DNA of 64,000 nt, taken from the IMG/VR virus record IMGVR_UViG_3300027608_000014, positions 84,873 through 148,872 of that record; one strand, 5' to 3'. Of the stretch, positions 8,913 through 58,702 are shown piece after piece. A program made the translations under genes and the position numbers. This stretch comes from a virus. The notes below the pieces were generated by a model. It made no database searches and was not told the origin of the DNA. It was given only the letters and a program-made list of their open reading frames with translations. Positions within the stretch are counted from its first letter, which is position 1; every line of letters begins with the position of its first letter.

Positions 8913-9191
8913 ATGACAAATCAAGAAGAAACATTCACCACATTTGTGTCCACAACAGGGGACCTTGCATATCTTCACAAGGAAGCTTTTGACATGGAGG
9001 GCTTTGGGCCAAAGATCGTCACTAGAGCCAGTGAGGTTGAGTTTGATGGCCCCAGCCAAGAGTGGTTTGCCAGGCTCAACGACGGCAAAGAGATTGCTCG
9101 GGATAAATCACGGGACGTAGTTCTTGCTAAAGAGCGGGAGATCATCGACATGATGCTTGCTCATGGAGAGATCATTCCCGGTGTCGACTAA
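8913..9191 (+). CDS. Hypothetical protein, first gene of RT operon
   Basis: The product is 92 aa, soluble and acidic, with no recognised motif. It sits behind an AATAAACA-type leader without Shine-Dalgarno. Its 3' end overlaps the next gene, starting a run of four coupled genes (8913-12430) that ends with the reverse transcriptase. Confidence 0.5.
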   Translation: MTNQEETFTTFVSTTGDLAYLHKEAFDMEGFGPKIVTRASEVEFDGPSQEWFARLNDGKEIARDKSRDVVLAKEREIIDMMLAHGEIIPGVD

Positions 9192-10101: not shown

Positions 10102-11126
10102 TGGAAACATCTATCTCAATTACATCAGACATTCTCGAACAGGCCCTTCTACTCAATGTTGAAACCGGCATGTGGTCAGGTAAGACATCACAGGATGCCG
10201 CTGACCTTGAGGCCCAAGGAGCAAACTCTCAGGATGAAATTTTTACAAAGGGGCAAAAGCTCCTGGTTCCCAAGACAGCTCTCGAGCCCTTTGCTCGGAT
10301 CAAGAATCGAATCGTTCAGTATCTTCGTCGGGAAGCCCGACACTTTTATATCAAGAGTACCTGGGTTGTAGCTCGCGACGCTCGTGAGAAGGTCAGTACT
10401 GAAATGGCCAAGTTTGAGGCTGACTGGAATGATATCGGAGAACGATTCATCCAGAACCTTCCTCAGTACAAGGCCACAATGCTAGCTATCTACAGAGAGA
10501 AGTATCCAACACTGGTAGATCGAATTGAGGCTCAGTACCCAACGGATGAAACTATCAGAGCTAAGTGCCGACTCCACTGGACATTTGGCGCCTGGCAGAT
10601 GGCTCAAATCGAAGATGCTGCTGCCGAGGTCGAAGAGCGTTTTCGCGCTAGAGCTAATTCCTATCTGAGCCAGCTGGAACAAGAAGTCTACGTCTCCTCT
10701 GTCGAGGCGGCAGTCGCTATGGCCAAGGGTATGGGAACCAAGACTGGTGAGATCAGTGATAAAAAGATTGCTAAGTTCAGGTCACTGATCAATCGTATTC
10801 GGCAAGACAACGTCTCGTTTTTGAATAGTGATCGCATTCAGTCGTTCCTCTCAAGTGTTGACGATAACATGCTCAACGTCAATAACTGGCAGACTGAAGG
10901 TGAGGCTAAACAGAGAGTAAAGGAGATCCTCGAGACCTACATCGCAGATGCTTCACTGACCGCTGAGGCTGCAGCTATCGCCAGCGCCTATGTCAGACGT
11001 GTGAGTGATGCCACTGAAACCGAAGTCGAAGAGGAAGAAGACGGTGGCGTTACACAGATTAGACGAGTAAAGGCACAGGGCGCTAATGTCGAAGCTGAAG
11101 ACGCTGAGGGCGAGACTCAAGAATAA
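10101..11126 (+). CDS. DUF3150-like protein
   Basis: The product is 341 aa and largely helical. It resembles DUF3150 proteins: an early SGKTSQDAADL segment, a KLLVP...LEPFARIKNRIVQYLR segment, then long helices and an acidic Glu-rich tail. It is coupled by TAATG overlaps both to the upstream gene and to the reverse transcriptase. DUF3150 proteins occur near AAA+ ATPases in phages and plasmids; function is unknown. Its tie to the RT may be operonic only. Confidence 0.5.
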   Translation: METSISITSDILEQALLLNVETGMWSGKTSQDAADLEAQGANSQDEIFTKGQKLLVPKTALEPFARIKNRIVQYLRREARHFYIKSTWVVARDAREKVSTEMAKFEADWNDIGERFIQNLPQYKATMLAIYREKYPTLVDRIEAQYPTDETIRAKCRLHWTFGAWQMAQIEDAAAEVEERFRARANSYLSQLEQEVYVSSVEAAVAMAKGMGTKTGEISDKKIAKFRSLINRIRQDNVSFLNSDRIQSFLSSVDDNMLNVNNWQTEGEAKQRVKEILETYIADASLTAEAAAIASAYVRRVSDATETEVEEEEDGGVTQIRRVKAQGANVEAEDAEGETQE

Positions 11127-12430
11127 TGAGCGTCCAAGGATATACCGTATCTTTTGTCTCTAAAAAGAAGGGTCATCTACAGGACAAAGTACGCCATTCG
11201 TACGGTCGACTTCTAGCTAATCTTGATGATCTTAGAATCTCTACTAGACTATTTATGCCTAGCGGAACTCGAGAGTCAGACCAGCTTGCGATCAAAAGCA
11301 TGGATAATGATCTGCCCCTGCGGGTCCTCAAGAGTAGCCTACAGAACGTTCTGGATTATGCACCATGTAGGGTCATCTGTGCTCCTGCATCAGAGCTCAA
11401 GTTGATTCAGGGTGAGATACTCAGAGAGCTGGAGCGAATTCCGGTTCATAGGGCTGCCCATGGATTTGTTCGTGGACGCAACTCGCTGAGTTGTGCCCAG
11501 GCGCATCTGTCGTACTGGGGACCTCAGCCTAAGGGCTTAGTTCTCTTAAACGCTGACGTGTCAGGGTTCTTTCACTCTATCTCTAAGGATATGGTAATAA
11601 CCGCCCTCTCTAAGCACGGACTCTCAGATTCTAGTGCCAGTGAGATCGTCAGGCTATGTATGATGCAGGCGTCACCCGAACTGGCCCTAGAGTCAATCCG
11701 AAACCTTGGCATCTTTACGGCTTATAATAGGACAGAACTCAAGGCAGCGATCTCTGAGCTAAAGCCAGTGTTGGAGTGGGACAATCCAGTTATCGATCAA
11801 TACCGACATATGATCACCAAAATGATCATGGGACTAGGGGCATCTATCCAGCCAAATGGTTGGTTTTTGCCTCAAGGGGCTCCAACCAGTCCGATCCTGT
11901 CTAATCTGGTATGTAAGATTGTCGATATACGACTGACTGCAATGGCCAAGGCTTTTGGGGCGTTCTATACGCGCTACGCTGATGATATCACATTCTCCTG
12001 GCCTGCTTTTACGAAGGGTAAAGTGATTGATAGTCTTAAGCGGTGTTCAGCTGAAGTGTTCTCTGAGTACGGAATGGCATACCATCCAAAGAAGATCCGC
12101 GTAGTTGGGCCAGGTGGCTCGCAAGACATTGTTGGATTCGTGATCAACTCTGGCAAGCCAACGGTTAGTCAGAAGTTCCGGAAGCGAATGAGAGCAGAGG
12201 TTTGTGCTCAACAGAAATCTAGAATTGCGACCCCACAGAGCATCATCAATCGACTGATCGGACAGGCTGGGTACATTCAGCCACTGCACCCTAAGGAAGC
12301 ACTTTGGATTAAGGAGCAGGTAGAGGACTTACAATACAAGACCAATAGAAAAGTGCGGATTAGCAATGCCACGGAAACCATCGAATCGACAACTACGACA
12401 AGCAACAGAAAAGTCTCAACAGTCAATTAG
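11126..12430 (+). CDS. Retron-like reverse transcriptase
   Basis: The 434-aa product is expected to copy RNA into DNA. Visible motifs, in order: HGFVRGRNS (112-120), the catalytic motif A NADVSGFFHSI (142-152, D144), LPQGAPTSPILSNL (248-261), the active site YADD (284-287), and GFVINSGKPTVSQKFRKR (337-354). The last resembles the retron-specific thumb-proximal region. No integrase, endonuclease or maturase domain is visible, arguing against a group II intron or retrotransposon. Its start overlaps the upstream stop. Downstream lie an overlapping small gene and nine tandem ncRNA units with a1-msr-msd-a2 layout, then RNase H. Known retrons usually have one ncRNA, most often upstream; here there are many, downstream. 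Confidence 0.88.
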   Translation: MSVQGYTVSFVSKKKGHLQDKVRHSYGRLLANLDDLRISTRLFMPSGTRESDQLAIKSMDNDLPLRVLKSSLQNVLDYAPCRVICAPASELKLIQGEILRELERIPVHRAAHGFVRGRNSLSCAQAHLSYWGPQPKGLVLLNADVSGFFHSISKDMVITALSKHGLSDSSASEIVRLCMMQASPELALESIRNLGIFTAYNRTELKAAISELKPVLEWDNPVIDQYRHMITKMIMGLGASIQPNGWFLPQGAPTSPILSNLVCKIVDIRLTAMAKAFGAFYTRYADDITFSWPAFTKGKVIDSLKRCSAEVFSEYGMAYHPKKIRVVGPGGSQDIVGFVINSGKPTVSQKFRKRMRAEVCAQQKSRIATPQSIINRLIGQAGYIQPLHPKEALWIKEQVEDLQYKTNRKVRISNATETIESTTTTSNRKVSTVN

Positions 12431-12812
12431 CCCAGATCAGGTATTTACACCAGGCGATCAGGTGCTAGTGAGTATACCGCACGGACCGGGGGAAACCTCA
12501 AAAGTGTGGGGCTACGTGTTGAAGTCTAAGCTGGTCAAAGGTAAGGTTCCAATAGTGGTTGATGCTGTTGTGGTTATCAACAGAGACCTGAGATTTCAAC
12601 CTGAGTCTTGTGTATTAGTTGATAAAAATAATATTATTTGTCACATACCTGTTGATAGTTCCGGCGCAACACTGAGCATTCAGGTCATCGAGGGTGAGAT
12701 CATAAGCATTAGGAGAATTGATGGACAGAAGTCCCCAATCATTCTTGAACTGGATGAAGACGGCGATCAGCAGTTGTACTCTGTGACTCATCAGCGCGAG
12801 CAGCGAATTTAA
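12366..12812 (+). CDS. Small beta-rich protein overlapping the RT gene
   Basis: The product is 148 aa. It overlaps the RT gene by 65 nt in another frame and is therefore probably co-expressed. The N-terminus is basic and Gln-rich (about residues 1-22). The remainder has repeated hydrophobic strands (GDQVLVSIP, VWGYVLKSKLV), suggesting a beta-barrel or SH3-like fold. It is the only protein gene between the RT and the ncRNA array, so it is a candidate RT/RNA partner. No family recognised. Confidence 0.55.
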   Translation: MPRKPSNRQLRQATEKSQQSISPDQVFTPGDQVLVSIPHGPGETSKVWGYVLKSKLVKGKVPIVVDAVVVINRDLRFQPESCVLVDKNNIICHIPVDSSGATLSIQVIEGEIISIRRIDGQKSPIILELDEDGDQQLYSVTHQREQRI

Positions 12813-12817
12813 TTTTT

Positions 12818-12945
12818 AGTGTTGGTTACCCATGGGATCTAAGAGGAACCCTCAAGGTCGGTCCCATGAGTAACCCGCTTTTACCCAAAACTGGGTATGG
12901 ATGAGCTCCTCCCCTTGGGGCGCAGGGCGAATCCTTATTGAATCT
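12818..12945 (+). ncRNA. Structured leader of the array, possible degenerate unit
   Basis: A 13-bp near-perfect stem is formed by GGTTACCCATGGGA (12824-12837) and TCCCATGAGTAACC (12862-12875). It is followed by CCCA/TGGG and CCCC/GGGG mini-hairpins. The terminal TGGC...GCA helix that defines the later units is not clear here. AGTGTTGG at 12818-12825 is complementary to 12997-13004, but that would cut across unit 1. It could be a leader, a processing signal or a decayed unit. Confidence 0.4.
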
Positions 12946-12950
12946 TTTCT

Positions 12951-13084
12951 GAACTGGCTTTGGGCACAATGGCTCTCCCCGAGGGTGCCCGAACGTCCAA
13001 CACTATGGGCGTTTCTTGCAACCGCACTTGATGAGTCGAGAGATAAACGAGCCTGGTCGCAGACCAGGCTTGGTATTGCAGTTT
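12951..13084 (+). ncRNA. Array unit 1
   Basis: a1 is GAACTG (12951-12956, followed by GC) and pairs with a2 CAGTTT (13079-13084, one G-T pair). Short hairpins: GGGCAC/GTGCCC (12962-12990) and GAACGTCC/GGGCGTTTC (12991-13015). The msd-like element has GCAACC/GGTATTGC at its base and a perfect 9-bp tip AGCCTGGTC-GCA-GACCAGGCT (13050-13070), which contains CCTGG. Confidence 0.6.
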
Positions 13085-13098
13085 ATTTGTTTTTTATC

Positions 13099-13292
13099 AA
13101 TATCTGGCTAAGGTCTTCAAGGCTTTCTTTGGCCCAATCGGCCAGAGTCTAACGTAACCGCCGTAAAACGCACAGTGCGACTGATACAGGGTGGGCACGT
13201 AACCGTCAGCGGCGGACAGCTTCGACGCCTCCCCTAACTCCGCTGGCCTAGCACTGACTACCTACGGGCCCACCCCGTATACTGCAGATTTT
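13099..13292 (+). ncRNA. Array unit 2
   Basis: a1 AATATCTG (13099-13106, then GC) pairs with a2 CAGATTTT (13285-13292) with one mismatch. Short hairpins: CTTTGGCC/GGCCAGAG (13127-13147) and CGCA/TGCG (13169-13179). The long stem runs 13184-13211 with 13252-13280 (the ATAC, GGGTGGGC, CGTA and GTCAG blocks pair in order), with CAGCGG/CCGCTG inside. A T-run at 13295-13303 follows, so this unit could also terminate transcription. Confidence 0.7.
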
Positions 13293-13303
13293 AGTTTTTT
13301 TTT

Positions 13304-13561
13304 GTTAGACTTGGCTTGTAATTGTGAGGTCACCCCTCACAGTTCGTCGGCTGTGCCGACGTCGATTATAACTACCTACAAGGAAGTGGGTACGATCTTT
13401 TGCTTACCGATTAGAAGATAATAGCACCGTATTTAAAGAATAAACAATGTTGGGGGAAGCCCAAGGCGCTGCGGACCCTGCTTCTGCGCCGCCCATTTTT
13501 TATTCATTTAAATAAGGCACTATTATAATCTAATCGTCTTCGCAAAATTGCTAGTCTTTAG
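13304..13561 (+). ncRNA. Array unit 3
   Basis: The a1 region GTTAGACTTGGC (13304-13315) can pair through AGACT with AGTCT (13553-13557) and through TTG with CAA in CTTCGCAA (13538-13545). Short hairpins: TGTGAGG/CCTCACA (13323-13341), CGTCGGC/GCCGACG (13345-13361) and TACCTAC/GTGGGTA. The long A/T-rich stem spans 13408-13536: CGATTAGA...TAATAG and TATTTAAAGAATAAA pair with the mirror region, capped by GGCGC/GCGCC. The a1/a2 helix is interrupted, so it is the least tidy of the set. Confidence 0.65.
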
Positions 13562-13572
13562 GTTTTTACTAC

Positions 13573-13786
13573 GAATTGGCTCAACATCATCCCGATGTCG
13601 TCAGCCACCACTGACGTTTTCTGATAGATGTTCAGGGTAACCATGAACCGAGGAGATGCTCGGAGTTATCCTGAAAATCTCTAACTCAATTTCGGATATA
13701 CTCAAAGCCCAAGGGCTATGTATTTCTATCCGATACGAGTTAGAGATTTTTCAGGAAACTCCTCGGATCTCCTCCGCTTGCAATTC
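13573..13786 (+). ncRNA. Array unit 4
   Basis: a1 GAATTG (13573-13578, then GC) pairs perfectly with a2 CAATTC (13781-13786). Short hairpins: ACATC/GATGT (13584-13598) and CGTCA/TGACG (13599-13616). The long stem pairs 13650-13698 with 13727-13774 over nearly 50 nt with few mismatches (the CTCTAACTC and TCCTGAAA blocks are complementary). AAGCCC/GGGCT forms a small hairpin in its loop. Confidence 0.8.
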
Positions 13787-13799
13787 ACAGTACCTTTCA

Positions 13800-14020
13800 A
13801 GAATTTGGCTAAAGCGCAGACTATCGTCTGCTTTGATCAATGGATGAACGTAATAACCCGGCGCGGTACTCCATGACAGGCGCCTGGGCCTCAACCGGTC
13901 GTCGATGGGTCCTACTTTGGGCTGATCGAAGTCCAAACGCTCACCTACAGGATCTCACCCGTCCAGGACCCATCGACGACCGGTTGCTGCCAGGGCGCCT
14001 GTCAGGTTCATGCAAATTCT
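13800..14020 (+). ncRNA. Array unit 5
   Basis: a1 AGAATTTG (13800-13807, then GC) pairs perfectly with a2 CAAATTCT (14013-14020). Conserved hairpin: GCAGAC-TATC-GTCTGC (13816-13831), followed by TTTGAT. The long stem pairs 13874-13913 with 13965-14004 as two perfect helices of 11 and 22 bp around a 7-nt internal loop. The helices include the palindromes GGCGCC and ACCGGT. This is the clearest unit of the array. Confidence 0.85.
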
Positions 14021-14031
14021 AAGTAACTTTA

Positions 14032-14217
14032 AATAATTTGGCCAAGCGCAGACCGAAGTCTGCTTTGATATATAAGTTGATTACAGTGAGTATGCGGTCG
14101 CAGAGCACGCGGAGCTCCGGCTCCACGTCGCACTCTTGCCACTGCTCTCTCCGAATCCCTCCGTGGCTGCGTTACGACGACGGCCCCGGAGCTCCGCGTG
14201 CTCCTTCGCAAATTATT
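14032..14217 (+). ncRNA. Array unit 6
   Basis: a1 AATAATTTG (14032-14040, then GCC) pairs perfectly over 9 bp with a2 CAAATTATT (14209-14217). Conserved hairpin: GCAGAC-CGAA-GTCTGC (14048-14063), followed by TTTGAT. The long stem GAGCACGCGGAGCTCCGG (14103-14120) pairs perfectly over 18 bp with 14186-14203, with CCACG/CGTGG inside. The stem contains GAGCTC. Confidence 0.85.
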
Positions 14218-14226
14218 GTTCTTTGG

Positions 14227-14367
14227 AAAGATTTGGCAAGCGCAGGTATCTACCTGCTTTGATTATTGGTCTCATGCACAGGCATGAGTGAGGTGTAATT
14301 CCCGGCCGCTTTACCTGGCCGTACGCAAGAGCGTGCTGCTTCTGGCTAGAATTCCACGCATATCTTT
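14227..14367 (+). ncRNA. Array unit 7
   Basis: a1 AAAGAT (14227-14232, followed by TTGGC) pairs perfectly with a2 ATCTTT (14362-14367, preceded by GCAT). Conserved hairpin: GCAGGT-ATCT-ACCTGC (14242-14257), followed by TTTGAT. A second hairpin is CTCATGC-ACAG-GCATGAG (14271-14288). The msd-like part is shorter and branched: GTGTAATTC (14294-14302) pairs with GAATTCCAC (14349-14357), enclosing CGGCC/GGCCG and ACGC/GCGT hairpins. Confidence 0.75.
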
Positions 14368-14368
14368 T

Positions 14369-14595
14369 GTACTTTTCATGACTTGGATGAAGCCTTAGGG
14401 CTTCCGTACCGACTTTGTCGGTGGTTAATTGTAAGACCGCTAGCCTCATAGAGTGGGGGCTACTCGAGCAGGTGGATCCCCCGGGTGCACCCGCCGCTAA
14501 TCACGTCCAGCCAGCGTATTCTCGCCGCGAGTACGTGATAACTGCGGAGCACCTCACGGATCCGCCTGCTCGAGTCTTCGCAAGTTGATCTGTAC
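14369..14595 (+). ncRNA. Array unit 8
   Basis: The two-part a1, GTAC (14369-14372) and ACTTG (14381-14385), pairs with a2 CAAGT (14581-14585) and GTAC (14592-14595). Short hairpins: GAAGCC-TTAG-GGCTTC (14389-14404) and ACCGAC-TTT-GTCGGT (14408-14422). The long stem ACTCGAGCAGGTGGATCC (14462-14479) pairs with 14558-14575 over 18 bp (one G-T pair), with GGTGC/GCACC and ATCACGT/ACGTGAT continuing inside. It contains CTCGAG and GGATCC. Confidence 0.8.
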
Positions 14596-14602
14596 TTTTC
14601 TC

Positions 14603-14830
14603 CTCTTGGCTTGGCCTAACAAGCCTGTCGATGCTCTCGTGTCGACATTTAAAGCAACTGACCGTCACTGATTACGTGACGTCGGGGTTGGCTCGCCCAC
14701 CCTCTGTACAAGACGCCCATACCTGCGTGGGTGCACCTGGCTCAGCCGCCTTCCCGGCCAGGCCAGCTGCCCTCACCCTGGTATTGACATTCTTGTACAA
14801 CGGGTCGGGCCCGCCATCCCTTCGCAAGAG
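14603..14830 (+). ncRNA. Array unit 9
   Basis: a1 CTCTTG (14603-14608, then GC) pairs perfectly with a2 CAAGAG (14825-14830). Short hairpins: GGCTTG/CAAGCC (14608-14625), GTCGA/TCGAC (14627-14646) and CGTCAC/GTGACG (14663-14681). The long stem has a TGTACAAG/CTTGTACA block (14705-14712 with 14792-14799) and G/C-rich blocks outside it. The loop carries further hairpins. The a2 segment ends 8 nt before the RNase H start codon, so folding could affect its translation. Confidence 0.75.
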
Positions 14831-14838
14831 TTAATAAT

Positions 14839-15294
14839 ATGAACAAAACAATCTATGAAGTATTTTCAGATGGATCAGCAAGCACTCATGGCTGTAAAGC
14901 CGGAGGATGGGCAGCTGTAATCCTAAAAGACGGAAGGCTAAAGAAGATTGTGTACGGAGCTACTTCTGACACTACCATTGGTAAGATGGAGATGCAGGCG
15001 CTGACCGAGGCATTCGCTTTCATCAGGGAACTGCCTGGTGCGTTTGACGCACACATAAAAGCCTTATCAGACAGTCAGTACATAGTGAATTGTGCTGTTG
15101 GCAGATATAAACGATCGGCTAATAAGCCTGAATGGCGCATCTTTGACGCTGCCTCTAAAGGACTAAGCGTAGAGATCGACTGGGTCGGAAGAAATCAAAT
15201 TCCAGAGCAGGCTCAGTGCGACGAACTTGCTGGAGCCTGTCGACTTAAAGTGGAAAATTCAAAAAATCACACTCCCATTAGATATAAACAATGA
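14839..15294 (+). CDS. rnhA: Ribonuclease HI
   Basis: The 151-aa product should cleave RNA in RNA-DNA hybrids. The catalytic carboxylates are visible in family order: D11 (SDGSAS), E51 (KMEMQAL), D78 (LSDSQYIV) and D128 (QCDELA). It sits directly after the ncRNA array on the same strand, with only 8 nt between the last unit and its ATG. That placement fits processing of RNA templates after reverse transcription; primer removal in phage replication is the alternative. It overlaps the next gene by 4 nt. Confidence 0.85.
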   Translation: MNKTIYEVFSDGSASTHGCKAGGWAAVILKDGRLKKIVYGATSDTTIGKMEMQALTEAFAFIRELPGAFDAHIKALSDSQYIVNCAVGRYKRSANKPEWRIFDAASKGLSVEIDWVGRNQIPEQAQCDELAGACRLKVENSKNHTPIRYKQ

Positions 15295-16005: not shown

Positions 16006-17109
16006 ATGAGTAATTTTAGGATCCTGTTAACGGCTGATTGCCACATCGGTAAAAATCAATACGGCTCATTTGAGCGCACCCAAGACTTTGCAGCAGTGCT
16101 TCCACAGATAGTACAGATAGCAAAGACTGAGGCTGTCGATCTTGTGGTGGTAGCCGGAGACTTGGCTGACGCTTATCACATTGGTGCCTTCTCCAGTAAG
16201 GCGATTCGCATTTTTGCTGACGACATGAATGAGGCTGGTATTCCAATGCTTATCATCGAGGGAAACCACGAGGCGCCCAAACTAGGACAGGAAAATAGAG
16301 CGGTTGCTCGAATTGACAGTCTTACTGATAAAGTTTTTCGCCCTTCAATGGCAACACTCTTTACTCACTTCAACGGTAAAGAGATTCGACTGGCAGCCGC
16401 CGACTGGATGCCTGCCACCAAACTACCAGACTTTTTGGACAGTCTTCCTTCGAGCCTTGATATACTTATCCTTCACCAAAGCTGTGAGGGGTTCCTGCCA
16501 AAGGTGGGACACACAGAGCTAAAGAAAGCCCAGCTGCTCAACAAAGCCAGAGTCATTGGGATTGGGGACCTACACATATCGAAGACACAGACACTAAGCG
16601 ATGGGTCCATCATCATCTCCCCAGGAAGCACAGAGCTGTGTGCTAGTGATGAGTCTACAGATAAGAGCGTAACGATCGTAGACATTGGAGATAAAATTTC
16701 TATCAGACAGGTGAAATTGGACACTAGAATGGTTGTCAAGTTTCGCATCTCTGAAGAAGCTTCTCTGACTGACGTTGATAGTCAACTCAGGGTCTTCGTG
16801 GATAGCAATCCATTGGTGTTCCTTGAGTACAGCAGTTCCATCAGACCGCTTGTGGAACTCAAACTTGTGGAGTGGGAAAACTTAGGTCTAACCCTGATCC
16901 AGTCAGATATGATTGTAGAGATTAATCTAAACGATAGATTTGTAGCTACCAAAGACAGTGCAAATGCAGAGATGGAGTCAATTATCGCAGAGAGACTGAA
17001 AGATCATCCACTCGAGCAAGATGCCAGCATTGCTCTGTGGAAATCCCCAAGCGCTGCTGAAGAAATTATTCAAAAACTAGAAAGTCAGATACGACAACAA
17101 TCACTATGA
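16006..17109 (+). CDS. sbcD: SbcD/gp47-like metallophosphoesterase nuclease
   Basis: The 367-aa product resembles the nuclease subunit of SbcCD (Mre11; T4 gp47), which processes DNA ends and hairpins with its SMC-like partner. The calcineurin-type motifs are all visible: ADCHIG (D11, H13), GDLADA (51-56), GNHEA (86-90), LHQSCEG, and a late GDLHIS. The SbcC-like partner is two genes downstream (18515), interrupted by a small gene and thyX. Hairpin-opening activity next to an array of hairpin templates is noteworthy but unproven as a link. Confidence 0.8.
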   Translation: MSNFRILLTADCHIGKNQYGSFERTQDFAAVLPQIVQIAKTEAVDLVVVAGDLADAYHIGAFSSKAIRIFADDMNEAGIPMLIIEGNHEAPKLGQENRAVARIDSLTDKVFRPSMATLFTHFNGKEIRLAAADWMPATKLPDFLDSLPSSLDILILHQSCEGFLPKVGHTELKKAQLLNKARVIGIGDLHISKTQTLSDGSIIISPGSTELCASDESTDKSVTIVDIGDKISIRQVKLDTRMVVKFRISEEASLTDVDSQLRVFVDSNPLVFLEYSSSIRPLVELKLVEWENLGLTLIQSDMIVEINLNDRFVATKDSANAEMESIIAERLKDHPLEQDASIALWKSPSAAEEIIQKLESQIRQQSL

Positions 17110-57253: not shown

Positions 57254-57260
57254 TTTTAAT

Positions 57261-57334
57261 CGGAGTGTAGCTTAGCTTGGTAGAGCGCCTGGTTTGGGAC
57301 CAGGAGGTCGCAGGTTCGAATCCTGTCACTCCGA
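57261..57334 (+). tRNA. tRNA-Pro(TGG)
   Basis: A canonical cloverleaf: acceptor CGGAGTG/CACTCCG, anticodon arm CCTGG-TTTGGGA-CCAGG with anticodon TGG, and a T-loop TTCGAAT. CCA is not encoded. It follows a divergent tRNA with the same anticodon. Confidence 0.85.
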
Positions 57335-57400
57335 TCTTTTATTAGGTACTTACTTTCAAAGGGGGAGTCCTAGTTCAAGATCATCAATCCCTAATTTCAT

Positions 57401-57486
57401 GCCGGAGTACCCAAGTAGTCAACGGGACCAGTTTTGTAAACTGACGACGAAAGTCTCCGCAGGTGCAAATCCTGTCTCCGGCTCCA
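57401..57486 (+). tRNA. tRNA-Thr(TGT), long variable region
   Basis: Acceptor GCCGGAG/CTCCGGC, D-arm CCC/GGG, anticodon arm CCAGT-TTTGTAA-ACTGA giving anticodon TGT, T-stem CAGG/CCTG with loop TGCAAAT, and an encoded CCA. The variable region is 14 nt with a possible GAC-GAAA-GTC arm, unusual for Thr. A Tyr (GTA) reading would break the anticodon stem. Confidence 0.65.
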
Positions 57487-58630: not shown

Positions 58631-58702
58631 TGCGGAGTAGTGTCAAGGTAACACGCTCGTCTTGTAAGACAGAACTCCCCGTTTCAATTACGGCCTCCGC
58701 AC
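58631..58702 (+). tRNA. tRNA-like, probably tRNA-Thr(TGT)
   Basis: Strong acceptor TGCGGAG/CTCCGCA, D-stem GTGT/ACAC with a GG-containing loop, and T-arm CCGT-TTCAATT-ACGG. The anticodon loop reads CTTGTAA (TGT), but the anticodon stem pairs poorly in that register, so identity is uncertain. The sequence 58492-58630 contains hairpins but no supported gene. Confidence 0.55.

Follow-up and report, generated by a model that had tools for sequence, protein, structure and literature searches.

The reverse transcriptase and its array

We describe a phage locus in which a retron-type reverse transcriptase (RT) is accompanied by nine tandem candidate retron-like units. It lies in a stretch of 64,000 bases, hereafter the window, corresponding to bases 84873-148872 of a 148,872-base (149 kb) virus record, IMGVR_UViG_3300027608_000014. 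The proteins of the window include a phage terminase, a DnaB-like helicase, a primase, a DNA polymerase, a UvsX-like recombinase, an endolysin, ThyX and an SbcC/SbcD-like pair, a content that points to a large phage. The features of the locus are as follows, where a1 and a2 are the arms of the helix closing each unit, msr denotes the small hairpins, msd the stem beyond them, and z the score of the unit's fold:

11126-12430, + strand: retron-clade RT of 434 amino acids (RVT_1 E 9e-15; YADD at residues 284-287; motif A D144)
12366-12812, + strand: small gene of 148 amino acids, directly after the RT, with a homologue in all four array-bearing phage lineages
12950-13085, + strand: array unit 1; a1 TGAACTG, a2 CAGTTTA; msr GGGCAC..GTGCCC; short msd stem; z -3.4
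13096-13295, + strand: array unit 2; a1 AATATCTG, a2 CAGATTTT, one mismatch; msd stem; z -2.5, the weakest
13307-13557, + strand: array unit 3; bulged a1/a2 AGACTTG and CAAAATTGCTAGTCT; two strong msr hairpins; long msd stem; TTCG before a2; z -7.9
13567-13792, + strand: array unit 4; a1 GAATTG, a2 CAATTC; msr hairpins; msd stem 13650-13774; z -9.5
13800-14020, + strand: array unit 5; a1 AGAATTTG, a2 CAAATTCT; msr GCAGAC-tatc-GTCTGC; msd with 40-nucleotide arms, 13874-13913/13965-14004; z -10.8
14032-14217, + strand: array unit 6; a1 AATAATTTG, a2 CAAATTATT; msr GCAGAC-cgaa-GTCTGC; TTCG before a2; z -5.8
14226-14368, + strand: array unit 7; a1 AAAGATTTG, a2 CATATCTTT, one mismatch; msr GCAGGT-atct-ACCTGC; z -2.6
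14379-14587, + strand: array unit 8; a1 TGACTTG, a2 CAAGTTG; msr GAAGCC-ttag-GGCTTC and a second msr hairpin; msd arms 14462-14575; TTCG before a2; z -6.8
14603-14830, + strand: array unit 9; a1 CTCTTG, a2 CAAGAG; msr TGTCGA..TCGACA; msd arms from 14696; TTCG before a2; z -8.2
14839-15294, + strand: RNase HI of 151 amino acids, in which D, E, D and D occupy the expected positions

The RT motifs are intact, including YADD, and the protein scores 201 bits (9e-60) against PADLOC RT_XIII and 134 bits (7.6e-39) against the NCBIfam retron St85 model, the latter below its curated cut-off of 235. Against the group II intron RT model (TIGR04416) it reaches 51 bits for a cut-off of 300, and against the DRT2 defence RT (NF041746, Drt2) 36 bits for a cut-off of 390. 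Its best sequence matches in the PDB are the retron Ec86 RT, followed by other retron RTs. By these comparisons the RT belongs to the retron group, as an earlier note made from the letters of the window had suggested; the placement named there beforehand as a check came out the same way, the RT grouping with retrons by hidden Markov model scores, not far from them. Two signature motifs vary. The NAXXH of region X reads CAQAH in the window and CANFH or CANYH in the related phages L010 and L011, with the N altered in L012 as well, and the VTG triplet of region Y reads IVG in the window and IVG or ILG across the RTs associated with arrays. Among validated retrons, the N of NAXXH is also missing from two, and VTG also varies in two (PMC6868368). 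The AlphaFold model of the RT is of low confidence (predicted local distance difference test, pLDDT, 48), as is that of the small gene (pLDDT 50), whose start overlaps the end of the RT by 65 bases.

Between the small gene and RNase HI, positions 12813-14838 (2.0 kb) hold only short open reading frames (eight without a Pfam match above cut-off), and nothing in the array region exceeds an Rfam gathering threshold. Matches to microRNA and other Rfam families, all far under gathering, were judged chance matches to long hairpins and set aside. Units were sought as [CT]TGG[CA] with a complementary arm after G 90-330 bases on, which returned nine consecutive, non-overlapping units at 12950-14830. 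Strict a1/a2 matches number 5 in the array; 200 dinucleotide shuffles gave 0.43 on average and never more than 3. Each unit folds into an a1/a2 closing helix, one or two small hairpins and an msd stem (z -2.5 to -10.8). Directly 3' of a1 stands a G in every unit, in the context [CT]TGGC in eight of the nine (TTGGA in unit 8), and a2 starts with GCA in all nine, while the msd of each unit is unrelated to those of the others. The overlapping small gene and the nine tandem a1-msr-msd-a2 units in a region without a credible reading frame, both described in the earlier note, thus hold up. Just upstream of unit 1, at 12823-12880, lies a strong hairpin (GGTTACCCATGGGATC..GGTCCCATGAGTAACC), which might serve the array transcript as a leader or in its processing.

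Arrays in related phages and their conserved pairing

Queried with the RT or the DUF3150 protein as a single sequence, viral_contigs yielded no relatives; an alignment-based scan yielded 80 loci. Three related phage lineages, with RTs 26-32% identical to the window RT, carry the RT, the small gene and an array. Their gene order (L010, L011, L012-14) is a DUF3150-like protein, the RT, the small-gene homologue, SbcD and SbcC, with no gap after the small gene. The arrays, of two units (L092), three units (L093) and three units (L095 with L112), lie about 9 kb downstream of the RT, between a primase-like gene (in two cases also with a small open reading frame) and the gene for DNA polymerase III alpha; RT, small gene, SbcD, SbcC, DnaB, primase and polymerase together form one gene cluster. 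All eight of these units start with [CT]TGGCT, have an msr hairpin of 7 bp and finish with CGCA followed by a2. The msr loops measure 3-6 nucleotides in most window units and 3 nucleotides in the relatives (6-7-bp hairpins). A model built from the unit heads of the relatives finds exactly their 2+3+3 units and nothing else in 440 kb; in the window array, its two best matches fall at the beginning of units 5 and 6 (E 0.23 and 0.24). In an RT tree built with no non-retron outgroup and without the L065 RT described below, the RTs of the window, L010, L011 and L012 form one clade (support 100/98), nested in an all-viral clade (support 90/94) apart from the sampled bacterial RTs. RT and array occur together in all four lineages of this clade, in agreement with the association that had been proposed from the window.

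Across units, the a1/a2 and msr stems alter in sequence yet keep their pairing. Over 16 units, a1 and a2 form 115 of 128 Watson-Crick pairs, versus 74.1 (standard deviation, sd, 5.6) with the a2 arms re-dealt. In the relatives, the a2 arms of all eight units were located by the CGCA motif, and the outer 6 bp give 46 of 48 pairs versus 28.5 (sd 4.0) re-dealt. The msr arms pair in 96 of 96 positions versus 31.8 re-dealt, a result due partly to selection, because these arms were chosen as hairpins. When the unit heads of the relatives are aligned, their msr helix shows 22 doubly changed cells, compared with 6.5 (sd 2.1) in shuffles; its covariation score is 0.96, compared with 0.25.

The msd stems appear to change fast. 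Two versions of one relative (L205 and L206, 99.95% identical) differ at 10 of 21,383 positions, and seven of these ten substitutions fall inside the array, which spans 1,071 bases (P 8e-8); the last unit's msd (L206:13501-13615) contains all seven. Two of them make up a compensatory A-T/G-C pair in the stem (13501/13517), four are unpaired and one sits at a marginal pair. No msd homology was found elsewhere in the 149-kb record or in the searched relatives, nor any match beyond chance around the viral and bacterial retron-like RTs that were fetched. The array likewise matched none of 50,697 phage and 72,556 plasmid records, and no protein-coding conservation was seen across it, in keeping with the non-coding character claimed for it earlier. 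Elsewhere in the same phage, outside the window, dispersed long hairpins occur (L120:8071-8160, 9084-9152 and 16352-16458); their stems differ, their apical parts have GTTAGT in common, and by the unit model they are not retron-like.

RNase HI was found in the relatives as well, in the L013/L014 records by search and at L010:665-1114 as read from the sequence, and there adjoins neither RT nor array. It is therefore not a dedicated component: the gene predicted next to the array is present, but the part assigned to it within the system falls away, and a helper role in template removal is plausible. The scanned genes adjacent to the window RT gave no defence-family match (effector or toxin), so the earlier statement that no retron effector is recognisable nearby stands. 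Further along the window, a tRNA-Pro and a tRNA-Thr are clear at 57260-57486, and a third tRNA-like match at 58631-58702 falls exactly on the Rfam threshold, without an ARAGORN call.

A second array, of a different and independent type, was found at L065:4660-5707 (the same as L207:2744-3791), where six tandem units lie directly upstream of a viral RT of 297 amino acids. All six follow the pattern a1 ..TATA|G, TAG|TATA.. a2 (shuffle maximum 3), and array and RT adjoin MoxR-like ATPase genes. The RT represents a third branch, whose RTs are 35-43% identical to that of L065. Taken with the window-type arrays, candidate template arrays therefore stand beside viral retron-type RTs in two settings or more. 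With a generic chain-of-helices detector, arrays could not be told from AT-rich background; its shared-motif version singled out L065. Other large phages (L015, L022, L025, L027, L028, L030, L047, L067 and L088) carry an RT, RNase HI, a small open reading frame and a single retron-like non-coding RNA (ncRNA), for example at L025:5824-7800, and in most of their RTs VTG has become VCG or ICG. An apparent second ncRNA copy in L026, at a contig end, was set aside. At L051/L220, L023/L214 and L024/L218, two to four CG-NNN-CG hairpins flank viral RTs on both sides; they are possibly several dispersed templates for one RT, and a search for a1/a2 at L051/L220, L023 and L024 did not confirm them as units.

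A probable multi-template retron and its possible roles

On sequence grounds, the locus is most probably a phage-borne multi-template retron, and its units are probably reverse transcribed. The array RNA would then supply nine templates for one RT, which would recognise them by the architecture that they have in common: a1/a2, [CT]TGG and msr. Priming would start from the 2'-OH of the second G of TGG, each msd, as variable cargo, would give rise to its own multicopy hairpin DNA, and RNase H of the phage or the host would strip the RNA from the product.

Several points weigh against this interpretation, which is built on sequence. In the window RT, NAXXH and VTG are altered, and the candidate priming context is TGGC instead of the usual AGC. 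Units 1, 2, 3 and 7 are weaker than the rest (1, 2 and 7 by fold energy and in their msd hairpin, 3 by its bulged a1/a2). The msr arms, and the a2 arms of several window units, were placed by complementarity, so that the pairing test is biased in their favour. The head model of the relatives gives only E ~0.2 on the best window units and is too diverged to prove the window units by itself. Because the arrays of the relatives lie 9 kb from the RT, the link between RT and array rests on co-occurrence, in the four lineages and at L065. The substitution cluster comes from one pair of metagenome assemblies only, and template switching during replication of palindromes, with one arm copied onto the other, can also yield paired changes.

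As to what a multi-template retron would do for the phage, the reading that fits best, and that we put forward tentatively, is that the hairpin DNAs work in trans on host DNA-binding or defence proteins, either as decoys or as ligands, because no effector is recognisable, the locus sits among replication genes, and the msd change fast with their stems still paired. Equally tentative is the evolutionary scenario in which large phages domesticated retrons into vertically kept arrays, so that a single RT prints a library of DNA hairpins whose msd are quickly replaced or mutated while pairing is kept. Such rapid turnover with retained pairing is as expected of a DNA-decoy arsenal against host defence.

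SbcCD enzymes cleave DNA hairpins, and the clustering of RT and small gene with SbcD, SbcC, DnaB, primase and polymerase in the relatives invites the idea that the hairpins work with the replication and repair machinery of the phage, as SbcCD substrates or ligands, primers or repair templates. We regard this as unlikely: SbcCD without an RT is frequent in phages, so the neighbourhood may be coincidence, and unrelated, fast-changing msd are not what a housekeeping role would predict. In tripartite retrons a toxic effector is neutralised by the RT and its DNA product (PMC12548924), so phage hairpins could conceivably mimic host retron DNAs and hold host effectors inhibited as anti-retron antitoxins; several msd per phage would suit several host retrons. 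With no msd match beyond chance near the fetched viral and bacterial retron-like RTs, this mimicry is distinctly unlikely. The hairpins might also be regulatory or structural RNA or DNA elements that no RT copies, such as attenuators, terminators or packaging signals, roles that long hairpins can have and that the terminator-like form of some msr hairpins recalls. The common a1/a2-G-msr-msd order, the pairing kept across units, the lack of further units in the genomes of the relatives and the second array directly beside a related viral RT (L065) make this improbable. A recombination donor for self-mutagenesis or for targeting other genomes, a role listed in the earlier note and one for which engineering uses retron DNA, is very unlikely given that no msd match exists in the own record, the relatives or the phage and plasmid collections and that long self-complementary stems make poor donors. 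Restriction-enzyme decoys, suggested by the many six-base palindromes visible by eye in units 5-9, are hardly credible, as palindromes in 17 units are not enriched over dinucleotide shuffles (4-mers z 1.2, 6-mers 0.8, 8-mers 1.3).

Comparison with known retrons

Described retrons comprise one RT with one template and serve cellular defence. Here, several phage lineages retain one RT with 2-9 unrelated candidate templates, and in the open-licence papers searched, phage retron arrays were not found described. If the templates are used, phages would make many defined single-stranded DNA (ssDNA) hairpins at once. Viruses would then have a weapon or tool of a new kind, and multiplex ssDNA production could draw directly on naturally multiplexed retrons. 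With the common unit grammar, a1 - YTGG - msr - variable msd - TTCG - a2, it becomes possible to test how templates are recognised.

Retrons are recognised by a1/a2 inverted repeats, a conserved priming G, usually within TAGC, msr hairpins and an msd hairpin (PMC6868368). The retron types entering the comparison are represented by the PADLOC models RT_XIII and RT_III-A and the NCBIfam model retron St85. The window system shares the RT clade, the inverted repeats, the msr hairpins and the msd hairpin, and has a candidate priming-type G. It differs in having 2-9 non-homologous templates per RT across its lineages instead of one ncRNA next to the RT, in the position of the array downstream of the RT or 9 kb off within a setting of phage replication genes, in the lack of a recognisable effector, in the TGGC context and in the CAQAH and IVG motifs of the RT. 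The system would work in the manner of a retron but is a variant of one.

Among the closest known systems are the single-ncRNA phage loci, which belong to the same all-viral RT clade and likewise combine RT, RNase HI and a structured non-coding RNA, but each of their RTs has a single ncRNA, which follows RNase HI and a small open reading frame. L065 shares the tandem a1-G-msr-msd-a2 units served by one RT and differs in its own motif (a1 ..TATA|G, a2 TAG|TATA..), in an array upstream of a 297-residue RT and in its MoxR-like ATPase neighbours. The nearest, and only, multi-copy precedent that we found in the open-licence literature is Retron-Nex1 (Ne160) of Nannocystis exedens, with apparently duplicated msr/msd repeats and no RT within a kilobase (PMC6868368). 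Like the phage arrays, it has several msr and msd repeats at one site; it is bacterial and has no RT that near, whereas the phage arrays have unrelated msd and an RT, and recur in several phages.

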